A stretch of 32,345 bases of DNA, taken from Deltaproteobacteria bacterium. Its GTDB lineage: Bacteria > Desulfobacterota > DSM-4660 > Desulfatiglandales > Desulfatiglandaceae. Numbering within the stretch: the first letter of the stretch is position 1; every line of letters begins with the position of its first letter. Of the stretch, positions 26,551 through 32,345 are shown piece after piece. Location: assembly GCA_021737425.1 (NCBI GenBank), contig JAIPDZ010000013.1, positions 1 through 32,345 on the forward strand, read 5' to 3'. The notes below the pieces were generated by a model. The model was not told where the DNA came from, made no database searches, and worked only from the letters and a program-made list of their open reading frames with translations. The position numbers were made by a program, and so were the translations under genes.

Positions 26551-27600
26551 ATGGACTCATCAGAGGCCCTTCGCCTGACCCAAACGGTCGCCGGATCGGG
26601 ATGAGCGTCAAAATTACCCCCAGGGGACCTGGACCGGGCACTTTGTGGATTGGACTTTCCAACCGATGCAAACGTCATCGTGGGTCTGGACCACGCAGAC
26701 GATGCGGCGGTTTACCAAATAACCGAAGAAATCGCCATGATCCAGACCGTGGATTTTTTCACGCCTATCGTGGATGATCCTTACTGGTTCGGACAGATTG
26801 CCGCAGCCAATGCCTTGAGCGATGTGTATGCCATGGGCGGAGTTCCCAAGACGGCCATGAATCTGGTGGCGTTTCCTTTAAAAGATATGGGCATGGATGT
26901 ACTCCGCCAAATCATTCAGGGCGGGCTGGATAAGATGAGAGAAGCTGAGGTGGTCCTGGTGGGGGGGCACAGCGTGGAGGACAAGGAACTCAAATACGGG
27001 CTCTCCGTTACCGGCTTTGCCCACCCCTCCCGGGTGCTTACCAATCGCAATCTCCATGAAGGGGATCAGATTATCCTCACCAAACCCCTGGGTACGGGGA
27101 TCATCAATACCGCCGTCAAGGGCGGACTGGCGTCTTTAAAAACCATTCGAGATGTCACTGAACTCATGGCGGCCCTCAACCGGAATGCGGCCGAGATCAT
27201 GGCCGAGTTCCCGGTTCACGCCTGCACCGATGTCACCGGCTTCGGGCTGCTGGGGCATATGGCCGAGATGATTGTGGATTCCGGGTTCGGTATGGTCCTT
27301 CGATCAGACAGGATTCCCATAATTTCCGAGGCCCTGGAGTATGCCGGGATGGGCCTGGTCCCTGCCGGGGCCTACAAAAACAGGGAGTTCAGGGAGTGCA
27401 TGGTCACCTTCGAACCCGGGGTGGATCGACTCCTGCAGGATGTTCTTTTTGATCCCCAGACCTCTGGAGGGCTTCTGATCTGTGCGGAGGGGAAGAAGGC
27501 CCGGGACCTGGTTGACCATCTAAGCGATGGAGGGGTTGAATCGGCCCGGATCATCGGAGAGGTGGTCTCCGGTGCAGCCGAGAAAATCGTGGTAAAGTAG
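26551..27600 (+). CDS. selD: SelD: selenide, water dikinase, selenocysteine-containing
   Basis: Makes selenophosphate from selenide and ATP, the selenium donor for selenocysteine synthesis. The 349-residue frame starts at ATG 26551 with AAGGAG eight bases upstream and contains an in-frame TGA at 26602-26604 (codon 18). Around it the sequence reads QTVAGSG-U-ASKLPPGDLDRA, which places Sec18 and Lys21 where E. coli SelD has the essential Cys17 and Lys20. The frame is continuous into LCGLDFPTDANVIVGLDHAD, VQTVDFFTP-like IQTVDFFTPIVDDPYWFGQI, GGHSVEDKELKYGLSVTG, CTDVTGFGLLGHM and FDPQTSGGLL. The usual family length is about 345. A caller treating TGA as stop would begin at TTG 26650 and lose 33 residues including the active site. 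yedF follows 61 bp downstream. Confidence 0.94.
26602..26632 (+). promoter_or_regulatory. UGA selenocysteine codon with SECIS-like hairpin
   Basis: The TGA at 26602-26604 is followed by a short hairpin CCAGG (26620-26624), loop GGA, CCTGG (26628-26632). The loop starts 20 bases after the UGA and carries G at its first two positions, which fits bacterial SECIS elements recognised by SelB. The stem is only five pairs, with the lower part not clearly paired. Confidence 0.65.
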
Positions 27601-27661
27601 GCCTTTATGGGGGTGAAGCATCCCTGGGGGCCGCCACCCATGCCAATGAAGGAGCACATAA

Positions 27662-28261
27662 ATGGGAAATGAGATAGACTGCCGTGGGTTGGCTTGCCCG
27701 GCTCCGGTATTACAGACCAAGTCTTTTATCGAGACTGAACATCCGGAAACCGTCCATGTACGGGTGGACAATAAAGCCGCCAAACAGAATGTCACCCGAT
27801 TTCTGGAATCCCGGCATTTTGAGGTCTCGGTGAAGGAAAATGACGCCGGCTTTGAAGTGATCGGCACTGCAAAAGGGGCGACCGCGCCGGCACAAGAGAT
27901 GGTTCAGTCAAGGGATAAGGAGAAAAAACGGATCATGGTCATGGTGGCCACCGACCGCATAGGTCACGGGGACGATGCTCTGGGCCTTAAATTGATGGGC
28001 AGTTTTGTCAAGACCCTCAGGGAAATGGGAGATGAATTATGGCGCCTAATCTTTGTCAACAACGGGGTTAAGCTCACCATTGAGGGCTCGGATCTCGTAC
28101 CGGTGATTCAGGCCATAGAGAAAGACGGGACCGGGATCCTGGTATGCGGCACCTGTCTCACCCATTTTGGCCTGCTGGATAAAAAACAGGTGGGCGAAAC
28201 CACCAACATGCTGGACATTGTGACCGCCATGCAACTGGCGGATAAGGTCATCAACATCTAA
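27662..28261 (+). CDS. yedF: YedF: sulfurtransferase-like selenium metabolism protein
   Basis: A 199-residue fusion of an N-terminal TusA/SirA domain (DCRGLACPAPVLQTK with the conserved Cys12 of the CPxP motif) and a C-terminal DsrE-like domain (about 95-199; IMVMVATDRIGHGDDALGLK, LIFVNNGVKLT, GILVCGTCLTHFGL). This architecture defines the selenium-metabolism YedF family, which tends to co-occur with selD and selenoprotein synthesis; a role in delivering selenium or sulfur is inferred, not proven. GAAGGAG lies seven bases before ATG 27662. It is 61 bp downstream of selD with no terminator, so a selD-yedF operon is likely. Confidence 0.92.
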   Translation: MGNEIDCRGLACPAPVLQTKSFIETEHPETVHVRVDNKAAKQNVTRFLESRHFEVSVKENDAGFEVIGTAKGATAPAQEMVQSRDKEKKRIMVMVATDRIGHGDDALGLKLMGSFVKTLREMGDELWRLIFVNNGVKLTIEGSDLVPVIQAIEKDGTGILVCGTCLTHFGLLDKKQVGETTNMLDIVTAMQLADKVINI

Positions 28262-30506: not shown

Positions 30507-31838
30507 CTATATGAGCGGTTCCATAATACCCAACCGATGGATCTTCCGGCGCAGGGTGTTCTTGTCGATCCCCAGTTCCCTGGCGGTGGCCACCTTTTTC
30601 CACCGGTTCCGTTCCAGGGCCTGTTGAATGGCCCGTTTTTCGATCTCTTTCAGAGTAAGACCGGTGGGGACCAGCATGGAGCCGTTCTTGGGGATCAATT
30701 GCTCAGGCAGACATTTCAGTCGGATCAATTCACCCTTGCAGAGCACAAATGCGTGTTCAATGGCGTTTTCCAGTTCCCGGACATTACCCGGCCAGTCATA
30801 CAGCATAAGCGCGGCCATTGCTTCCTGGGTCATGCCCACAATCTTTCGGCCGGTCATGTCATTGAAGTGCTGAATAAAGTGATCCACCAGCAAGGGAATA
30901 TCCTCCCTTCGTTCACAAAGGGGTGGCAATACCATCTTGATCACGTTAATCCGAAAATAAAGATCCTCCCTGAACCGGCCTTCCTGCACCAGCTTTTCCA
31001 TATCCCGATGGGTGGCGGCGATGACCCGGGCATTTGTTTTGATCTGTTTTGTGGATCCCAGGGGCTCATAGACCTTTTCCTCCAGAACGCGCAAGAGCCT
31101 TATCTGGACTGCCTGCGAAATATCCCCGATCTCGTCCAGGAAAATGGACCCATCCTGGGCCAGGGAAAACCGGCCGGGCTTGTCCTTCTTGGCATCGGTG
31201 AATGCCCCGGCCTTGTATCCGAACAATTCCGATTCACACAGGTTGTCCGGCAACGCCCCGCAGTTGACCGCCACGAACGGTCCGTCGCGTTGGGTACTGC
31301 TGTTGTGGATGGCCCTGGCAAAGATCTCCTTTCCGGTGCCGCTCTTCCCCTGGATCAAAACCGTACTGTTGCTTTCAGCGATCTGGGGAAGCATTGAAAA
31401 CAGTTTGACCATCTCCCCGTTTTTGCTCACAATATCCTCAAAAGACTGCTGTTTGAGCAAAGCCCGCCTCAGCTTCTTGACAACGGTCAGATCCCTGAAG
31501 GTCTCCACCCCGCCGATGATTTGGCCCGCCTCATTTTTTAACAGCGCGGTATTGACACTGATGGGAATCGATTTTTTGTCCGCGCGGATAATATGAACCG
31601 GCATATTCTCAATGGGGCTTTTCGTCTCCATGGTGTGTCGGAGCACACACCCGGTTTCGCACACATTGGCCCTGTACACCTCAAAGCAGGGCCGCCCCAT
31701 GGCCTCCTGTCTGGAAATGCCGGTAATGACTTCAGCAGCCGCGTTAAACGAGGTGATCTCCCAGTCGAGATTCACCGTAAAAACGCCGTCAGCGATACTG
31801 TCCAATATGATCTGGTAATGCCTGTCCAAGGAATACAT
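30507..31838 (-). CDS. PAS-containing sigma-54 enhancer-binding protein
   Basis: A 443-residue transcription activator. The N-terminal PAS domain (about 5-120; ILDSIADGVFTVNLDWEITS) carries three cysteines, Cys51, Cys60 and Cys64 (C-x8-C-x3-C). The AAA+ sigma-54-interaction domain has Walker A GKSGTGKE (164-171), the sigma-54 contact loop GAFTDA (211-216, a variant of GAFTGA), and Walker B SIFLDEIGD. The Fis-type helix-turn-helix lies at the end (VATARELGIDKNTLRRKIHR). ATG 31838 follows AGGAG at six bases; the frame upstream to 31892 is not needed. It lacks a receiver domain, so PAS ligand or redox sensing is the likely input. It is divergent from a canonical sigma-54 promoter with two dyads between, as in orp-type clusters of Desulfovibrio. 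Confidence 0.93.
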   Translation of the reverse strand: MYSLDRHYQIILDSIADGVFTVNLDWEITSFNAAAEVITGISRQEAMGRPCFEVYRANVCETGCVLRHTMETKSPIENMPVHIIRADKKSIPISVNTALLKNEAGQIIGGVETFRDLTVVKKLRRALLKQQSFEDIVSKNGEMVKLFSMLPQIAESNSTVLIQGKSGTGKEIFARAIHNSSTQRDGPFVAVNCGALPDNLCESELFGYKAGAFTDAKKDKPGRFSLAQDGSIFLDEIGDISQAVQIRLLRVLEEKVYEPLGSTKQIKTNARVIAATHRDMEKLVQEGRFREDLYFRINVIKMVLPPLCERREDIPLLVDHFIQHFNDMTGRKIVGMTQEAMAALMLYDWPGNVRELENAIEHAFVLCKGELIRLKCLPEQLIPKNGSMLVPTGLTLKEIEKRAIQQALERNRWKKVATARELGIDKNTLRRKIHRLGIMEPLI

Positions 31839-31923
31839 TGAGATCTCCTGATGTGCGAAAATAGGTTCCCCATGAAACGCTTGATGATTCATTCAAAAAC
31901 ATAAGCTCGCCCTATGGGAGACA

Positions 31924-31951: not shown

Positions 31952-31968
31952 TCATAAAAAGCCTTTTG

Positions 31969-31983
31969 GGTACAATTTGTTCC
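31969..31983. promoter_or_regulatory. Upstream activator dyad, copy 1
   Basis: GGTACAATTTGTTCC, an imperfect 15-base palindrome with half-sites GGWACAA/TTGTWCC. It is 33 bp centre to centre from copy 2 and about 150 bp upstream of the sigma-54 promoter, a normal distance for an enhancer-binding-protein site. Confidence 0.65.
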
Positions 31984-32001
31984 AATGCGCCCGCTATTAA
32001 G

Positions 32002-32016
32002 GGTACAAATTGTTCC
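32002..32016. promoter_or_regulatory. Upstream activator dyad, copy 2
   Basis: GGTACAAATTGTTCC, identical to copy 1 except for one central base. Both copies are preceded by an extra G. The 33-bp spacing is close to three helical turns, placing both on one face of the helix. The centre is about 121 bp upstream of the -12 GC. Confidence 0.65.
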
Positions 32017-32116
32017 CGAAGCCTCACTATGTCTTACTCTATTTCACCCGGACAAGTCCAACTTTTTCGATTAACATCAAGTTCTTGTACCCACGCCCAT
32101 CACCGACTGTCTATAC

Positions 32117-32132
32117 TGGCATAGAAGTTGCT
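32117..32132 (+). promoter_or_regulatory. Canonical sigma-54 promoter (-24/-12)
   Basis: TGGCA (32117-32121), six bases, TTGCT (32128-32132). The invariant GG (32118-32119) and GC (32130-32131) are separated by ten bases, matching TGGCAY-N5-TTGCW. The predicted transcription start is about 12 bp further, near 32143, firing rightward away from the activator gene. Confidence 0.8.
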
Positions 32133-32142
32133 CAATAACTTT

Positions 32143-32281
32143 GGGAGAGGCCTTTGCAGAAACATTATCCTTCGCCTTTCACGGTTCATCGCAACAATAC
32201 CTTCCCGAGAAAAGCGGTCGTAAGGATGGGATAAAAAATCGGCATGAGATCACGACGCCTGCAAAGGTCTCCCTTTTATTT
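32143..32281 (+). ncRNA. Structured leader or sigma-54-driven small RNA, unknown class
   Basis: The predicted first transcribed bases GGGAGAGGCCTTTGCAG (32143-32159) pair with CTGCAAAGGTCTCCC (32259-32273): 15 base pairs interrupted only by a two-base bulge (GG 32149-32150). The distal arm is followed by TTTTATTT, like an intrinsic terminator. Inside, ATCCTT (32167-32172) pairs with AAGGAT (32222-32227), extendable by CG/CG and CC/GG past single bulges. The whole element is about 139 nt. It could be a free small RNA or an attenuating leader of the gene that starts at 32310. It does not match a riboswitch, 6S RNA or tmRNA as far as I can tell. Folding was done by eye. Confidence 0.5.
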
Positions 32282-32309
32282 GCATTTATGAATATCCATC
32301 CGACGGATT

Positions 32310-32345
32310 ATGGCCAAGGTGGGGATTCCCATATTTCAATCGAGA
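32310..32345 (+). CDS. Start of a probable NifX/NifB-type metal-cluster protein (runs off window)
   Basis: Twelve codons are visible from ATG 32310, reading MAKVGIPIFQSR and open to the window end. Short [KR]-[VI]-[AG]-IP-[IV]-[FW] starts of this kind are common in small dinitrogenase Fe-Mo cofactor biosynthesis (NifX/NifB C-terminal) domain proteins of sulfate reducers, including proteins of orp clusters. The Shine-Dalgarno is weak (GGA close to the ATG). An overlapping ATG at 32288 in another frame is open too but reads less like a known family. The call rests mostly on context: a sigma-54 promoter and activator directly upstream. Confidence 0.4.
   Translation, partial: MAKVGIPIFQSR

Follow-up and report, generated by a model that had tools for sequence, protein, structure and literature searches.

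The 5' leader of an operon at the right-hand end of the window (the whole stretch of 32,345 nucleotides analysed here, from a deltaproteobacterium of the family Desulfatiglandaceae) begins with a long-range stem whose two arms are the terminal inverted repeats of an IS5-type insertion element. Comparison of sequences establishes the promoter, the arms, the identity of their ends and the position in an operon leader, and shows that the element is conserved in a second genus although its flanks are saturated. The element has probably been recruited to serve in the leader of the message; from indirect evidence in two lineages we infer that selection has acted on the RNA, and also that the leader stem affects the stability or processing of the mRNA. 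The explanation we favour, with a confidence about midway between doubt and acceptance, is that an IS5-type MITE inserted here long ago and that selection has retained it as a leader stem in which the mRNA's 5' end is buried. The features on which this account draws are as follows.

30507 to 31892, minus strand: divergent PAS-type sigma-54 activator (PAS, Sigma54_activat and HTH_8 by Pfam; orthologs in relatives)
31968 to 31983, plus strand: upstream site 1, GGGTACAATTTGTTCC, candidate activator site (sequence; paired sites at orthologous promoters)
32001 to 32017, plus strand: upstream site 2, GGGTACAAATTGTTCCC, candidate activator site (same basis as site 1)
32117 to 32132, plus strand: predicted sigma-54 promoter, TGGCATAGAAGTTGCT (-24/-12; sole match in the window, kept at orthologous loci)
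32143 to 32309, plus strand: leader between the predicted start and the PF02579 gene
32147 to 32271, plus strand: 125-bp non-autonomous, insertion-derived leader element with IS5-type terminal inverted repeats (MITE ends in relatives; ISNme1; ortholog in genome G017)
32147 to 32159, plus strand: 5' arm of the stem P1, GAGGCCTTTGCAG
32165 to 32172, plus strand: 5' strand of a weakly supported inner helix, TTATCCTT
32222 to 32229, plus strand: 3' strand of the same weakly supported inner helix, AAGGATGG
32237 to 32258, plus strand: conserved block TCGGCA..A.ATCACGACG adjoining the 3' arm and common to G017 (16/20 columns identical)
32259 to 32271, plus strand: 3' arm of P1, CTGCAAAGGTCTC, followed by TTTTATTT, the latter not conserved in G017
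32310 to 32345, plus strand: start of a 115-aa PF02579 (NifX/NifB-like) protein, first gene of the operon (contig overlap; Pfam; synteny)

The sigma-54 promoter that the initial annotation had placed ahead of the structure stands up well, since the pattern TGGCAY-N5-TTGCW has a single match in the window (0.06 expected) and this match is conserved at orthologous loci. It carries GG and GC at -24/-12 with the correct spacing, an activator and upstream sites lie nearby, and the -12 C at 32131 puts the predicted start at 32143 (+/-1). The same promoter, with paired upstream sites, is present at the orthologous loci of at least 9 other genomes. The divergent activator is the likely regulator of this promoter; its orthologs in relatives (70-84% identity) are likewise divergent and adjoin the same promoter, and a scan of the genome's contigs with the activator gave only a distant match. 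Upstream sites 1 and 2 are probably binding sites of the activator, judging by their sequence. Paired palindromic GGGTRCAWNTTGTTCCC-like sites occur upstream of the orthologous promoters (window 31968-32017; L045-L047, L080-L087, L103-L111, L132), and this palindrome is a candidate binding motif of the PAS-type activator.

The window stops where its contig does, and its final 321 bp recur, at 97% identity, at the end of contig C72, on which the operon continues beyond the window and the PF02579 gene runs on at 7885-7538 of L003 (minus strand). The joined order is divergent activator, two palindromic sites, promoter, leader, PF02579 gene, multihaem cytochrome with an in-frame TGA, and rhodanese. 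We found the same order in two genomes of another genus (G034 and G031), and the activator, PF02579 gene and cytochrome together in a member of another family (G439). This synteny supports the view that the window contig and C72 are adjacent in the genome and do not merely carry copies of a dispersed repeat, in which case the sequence differences between them are strain variation. A recent repeat within the organism's own genome was considered and rejected, the sole second copy being the dovetailing contig end. Because the next contig supplies the PF02579 gene starting at 32310 and then the cytochrome and rhodanese genes, the element is the operon's 5' leader.

The paired arms reported by the initial annotation near the predicted start are real: 32147-32159 and 32259-32271 form an unbroken run of 13 pairs that includes a single G.U, and enclose a loop of about 100 nt. 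P1 extends to 15-16 pairs when the outer G's are included (32143-32145 with 32272-32274) and A32146 is bulged. The claim that transcription starts exactly at the base of this stem holds within the +/-1-2 nt precision of a sigma-54 start in the window, but the G017 stem starts about 4 nt past the predicted start. When the 453-nt intergenic region was shuffled with its dinucleotide composition kept, 2/200 sequences gave a stem of at least 13 pairs, and the whole window holds just one longer stem of this kind. The structure as a whole folds better than shuffled controls, but this is true of both strands (z = -2.2 on the plus and -3.7 on the minus strand) and does not single out the strand predicted to be transcribed. 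The nested ATCCTT/AAGGAT stem that had been described within the loop does exist and appears in the minimum free energy structure of the second strain copy, but in the window copy it lies about 1 kcal/mol above the optimum, and it stands out weakly from shuffles (p about 0.10).

The identity of the arms points to their origin. They read GAG[G/A]CCTTTGCA...TGCAAAGGTCTC, an IS5-type terminal inverted repeat. The end 12-mer TGCAAAGGYCTC has 29 matches in G018 and 29 in G439 as against 0 for the reversed control, and the right and left ends of the element agree at 12/12 and 11/12 positions, respectively, with GAGACCTTTGCA, the end of the relatives' MITEs and of ISNme1, an IS5 family member with the terminal repeats GAGACCTTTGCAAAA/TTTTGCAAAGGTCTC (PMC4596501). 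In the relatives, copies of TGCAAAGGYCTC bound dispersed elements of 123-185 bp; in 26 of about 40 copies the flanking target duplications agree at 4 or 5 of their 5 bases, and MITEs with the same ends carry several unrelated interiors. The multi-copy family of G018 and G439 (123-185 bp; e.g. L139, L143, L161, L169, L176, L197) has ends GAGACCTTTG[C/A]A and 5-bp target duplications. The flanks of the window element, TGGGA and CCTTT, match at 0/5 positions and so show no target-site duplication, and its own genome (G000) contains no second element beyond the window and the overlapping contig. A PF05598 transposase with these ends was not found in six genomes, the assemblies of which are fragmentary.

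The window element thus resembles IS5-family elements and MITEs with ISNme1-type ends (ISNme1, ISPg1, BrickBuilt) in its 12-bp ends, GAG[A/G]CCTTTGCA/TGCAAAGGTCTC, in its shortness and lack of coding capacity, and in its size range. It differs from them in the missing target duplication, its single genome copy, its own interior and its fixation at a single site that is orthologous between two genera. Given the missing target duplication, the differing interior and the lack of a further copy in the genome, we regard it, on sequence grounds, as derived from an IS5-type MITE and not as a current member of such a family.

Conservation was found in G017, which belongs to a different genus of the same family and has an activator 84% identical to that of the window, the same promoter and the same element, placed 32 bases from the promoter start as compared with 30 in the window. 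We located this ortholog via synteny, blastn having missed it, and on its scaffold a gap of N's separates the element from the cytochrome; among the relatives, G017 was the only one with the element at the orthologous position. The flanks of the two copies align no better than shuffled sequence (z -0.9, -0.2, 0.7), whereas the element aligns with z = 10.5. Within it the arms are identical at 24/26 positions and the interior at 53/99 (Fisher p = 2e-4), and the right half of the interior reaches z = 5.1. All 13/13 pairs of P1 are kept across the window, the second strain copy and G017; the pair G32159-C32259 of the window is C-G in G017, and one G.U of P1 has become G-C in the second strain copy. 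The conservation and covariation of the arms on which the initial annotation would have relied are therefore present in part: the arms are kept in G017 with one compensatory pair, but covariation across the two lineages is not significant, 161/500 shuffles scoring as high. Conservation beside saturated flanks is, in these alignments, the stronger argument.

Our favoured account of a retained insertion can be set out as a sequence of events. A non-autonomous IS5-type element would have landed just downstream of the operon's sigma-54 promoter in a common ancestor of the window genus and that of G017, before the two split, and selection would since have retained it within the 5' leader. The activator and sigma-54 would start transcription at about 32143, and the first ~16 nt of the transcript would pair with nt ~117-132, so that a duplex would enclose the 5' end, the ~100 nt between would form a side domain and the message would run on to the gene at 32310. 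An influence on mRNA lifetime or processing would be most likely: the paired 5' end may resist 5'-end-dependent decay, or the duplex may be an RNase III site, as has been reported for the Correia elements of Neisseria. The Correia element downstream of the mtrCDE promoter is reported to be cleaved by RNase III at its ends (PMC10969869). Like it, the window element is an inverted-repeat element that lies between promoter and gene and would be transcribed into the leader, where its paired ends form a stem; the two differ in that their sequences are unrelated and the promoter here is of the sigma-54 type.

Several observations count against this account. The element is found in two lineages only, lacks a target duplication and has a single genome copy; the minus strand folds as well as the plus strand or better; the same promoter and operon occur in at least 5 genomes whose leaders lack the element; and, as noted, P1 covariation is not significant and no transposase with these ends was found. 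If the account is true, a miniature transposable element has persisted at its site in different genera, where it supplies the first ~130 nt of a sigma-54 message, and the step from insertion to leader can be traced, since relatives hold multi-copy elements with the same ends, element-free leaders (G031) and a retained copy. It would also serve as a warning that a "structured RNA at +1" can be a pair of terminal inverted repeats.

The alternative that deserves most attention, although we consider it clearly less probable, is that an IS5-type MITE lies in the leader by chance and has no effect, the likeness to G017 being due to a later insertion or exchange. Its ends do belong to an abundant mobile family, leaders without the element exist, and other leaders of the operon hold repeat debris, such as GAGACCTTTGAA in G439. 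Against such an inert remnant, the flanks are saturated and the element is not; had there been two insertions, both must have hit the same place in the same orientation, with the GAGGCC variant of the left arm and the inner block ATCACGACG in common; and the target duplication expected of a recent insertion is missing. It is improbable, to a much greater degree, that the inverted repeat acts at the level of DNA, binding a protein or bending DNA past the promoter with RNA pairing irrelevant. Inverted repeats are symmetric as DNA, both strands fold well, and an IHF site in a Correia element provides a precedent (PMC10969869), but the arms lie ~100 bp apart, unlike a simple operator, and the strain change from G.U to G-C is neutral or improving for the plus-strand RNA.

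An equally improbable reading goes back to the initial annotation, which saw either a discrete sRNA of about 139 nt or a leader that decides termination, with transcription ending past the 3' arm at its T-run. The predicted start at the stem base and the presence of TTTTATTT 3' of the 3' arm in both strain copies speak for it, and a stem followed by a T-rich stretch is what the window copy has in common with intrinsic terminators and attenuators. These are GC-rich hairpins with a short loop and a U-run, whereas here the loop is ~100 nt, a scan for intrinsic terminators called none, and the arm in G017 is followed by TATTCAATTCC, which has no T-run. Termination here would moreover shut off the operon unless there were a read-through mechanism, and none is visible. 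Because the leader sits between the sigma-54 start and the operon, into which it runs directly and in syntenic order, neither termination nor a free sRNA is likely. Least probable, to our minds, is a ligand- or redox-sensing leader of riboswitch type, in which P1 would close a sensor domain and the ATCACGACG block would read a selenium- or sulfur-related signal. Its appeal lies in a probable selenoprotein in the operon, in SelD and YedF in the same window, and in a feature shared with structured leaders closed by a P1, namely a long-range helix near the 5' end around a domain with a conserved block; unlike those, the element has no Rfam match, occurs in two lineages only and is missing from several genomes that run the orthologous operon, and its inner helix is weakly supported. 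An intermediate version, a transposon-derived leader RNA with a selected sensor-like domain (P1 and ATCACGACG) that would control stability or translation of the selenoprotein operon, seems unlikely, though somewhat less so than pure sensing, DNA-level action or termination.

Leaders with the same promoter and operon in G031, G005, G012, G037 and G007 are without the element. Its absence from these orthologous leaders indicates that its influence on the regulon is confined to one lineage and that it lies outside the regulon's core; by this comparison the structure is a lineage-specific addition and not an essential part of the regulon. In wider searches, blastn of the leader against 46 genomes of the family returned its own contig pair only, the covariance model R1 revealed no further ortholog in 85 genomes of the order and 395 of the phylum, and the plasmid collection searched gave no match. 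The weak R1 matches were rejected: the one in G029 (L165) is a different MITE, which has the duplication AAATG, that in G324 (L208) is MITE-like, and that in G178 (L207) is a repeat of an unrelated kind. Rfam gave no match to the leader at the gathering threshold and none of relevance at a permissive E value, in keeping with the initial annotation, which did not recognise the class.

A different stretch of ~120 nt occupies the same leader in G034 and G033 (L045, L046) and is absent from G031 of the same genus (L047), which indicates that this leader has gained or lost sequence on more than one occasion. We considered homology between this insert and the window element and rejected it, as their similarity was not above that of shuffles and a shared 10-mer lies on opposite strands and was judged to be due to chance. 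The corresponding intergenic region of G439 (L132) has a single MITE end, GAGACCTTTGAA, and G033 has a GTCATTCCGG repeat (L046 965-1080) with a below-threshold score against Rfam WsnRNA46.

The multihaem c-type cytochrome of the operon (L003 6100-7440, minus strand, on C72) has its reading frame interrupted at residue 71 by an in-frame TGA (GEG-TGA-GGxVEPLAPHEK), which was present in 23/23 relatives read (L079-L101). A hairpin, GGAGCCGTTGGCTCC, lies 3' of this TGA, and in L101 (AACTCCGTTGGAGTT) its stem is altered on both sides, as expected of a SECIS element; from these sequences the cytochrome is a probable selenoprotein. An NCBIfam scan of the cytochrome listed a weak match to ExtM alone, and ExtKL was not listed. 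Elsewhere in the window, 26650-28261 encodes the selenide water dikinase SelD and, after it, the selenium protein YedF; the listed SelD frame begins at about profile position 34, and its true start probably lies upstream, perhaps via a Sec codon. Near the other end of the contig, an ISH6-family transposase is present at 151-1416.
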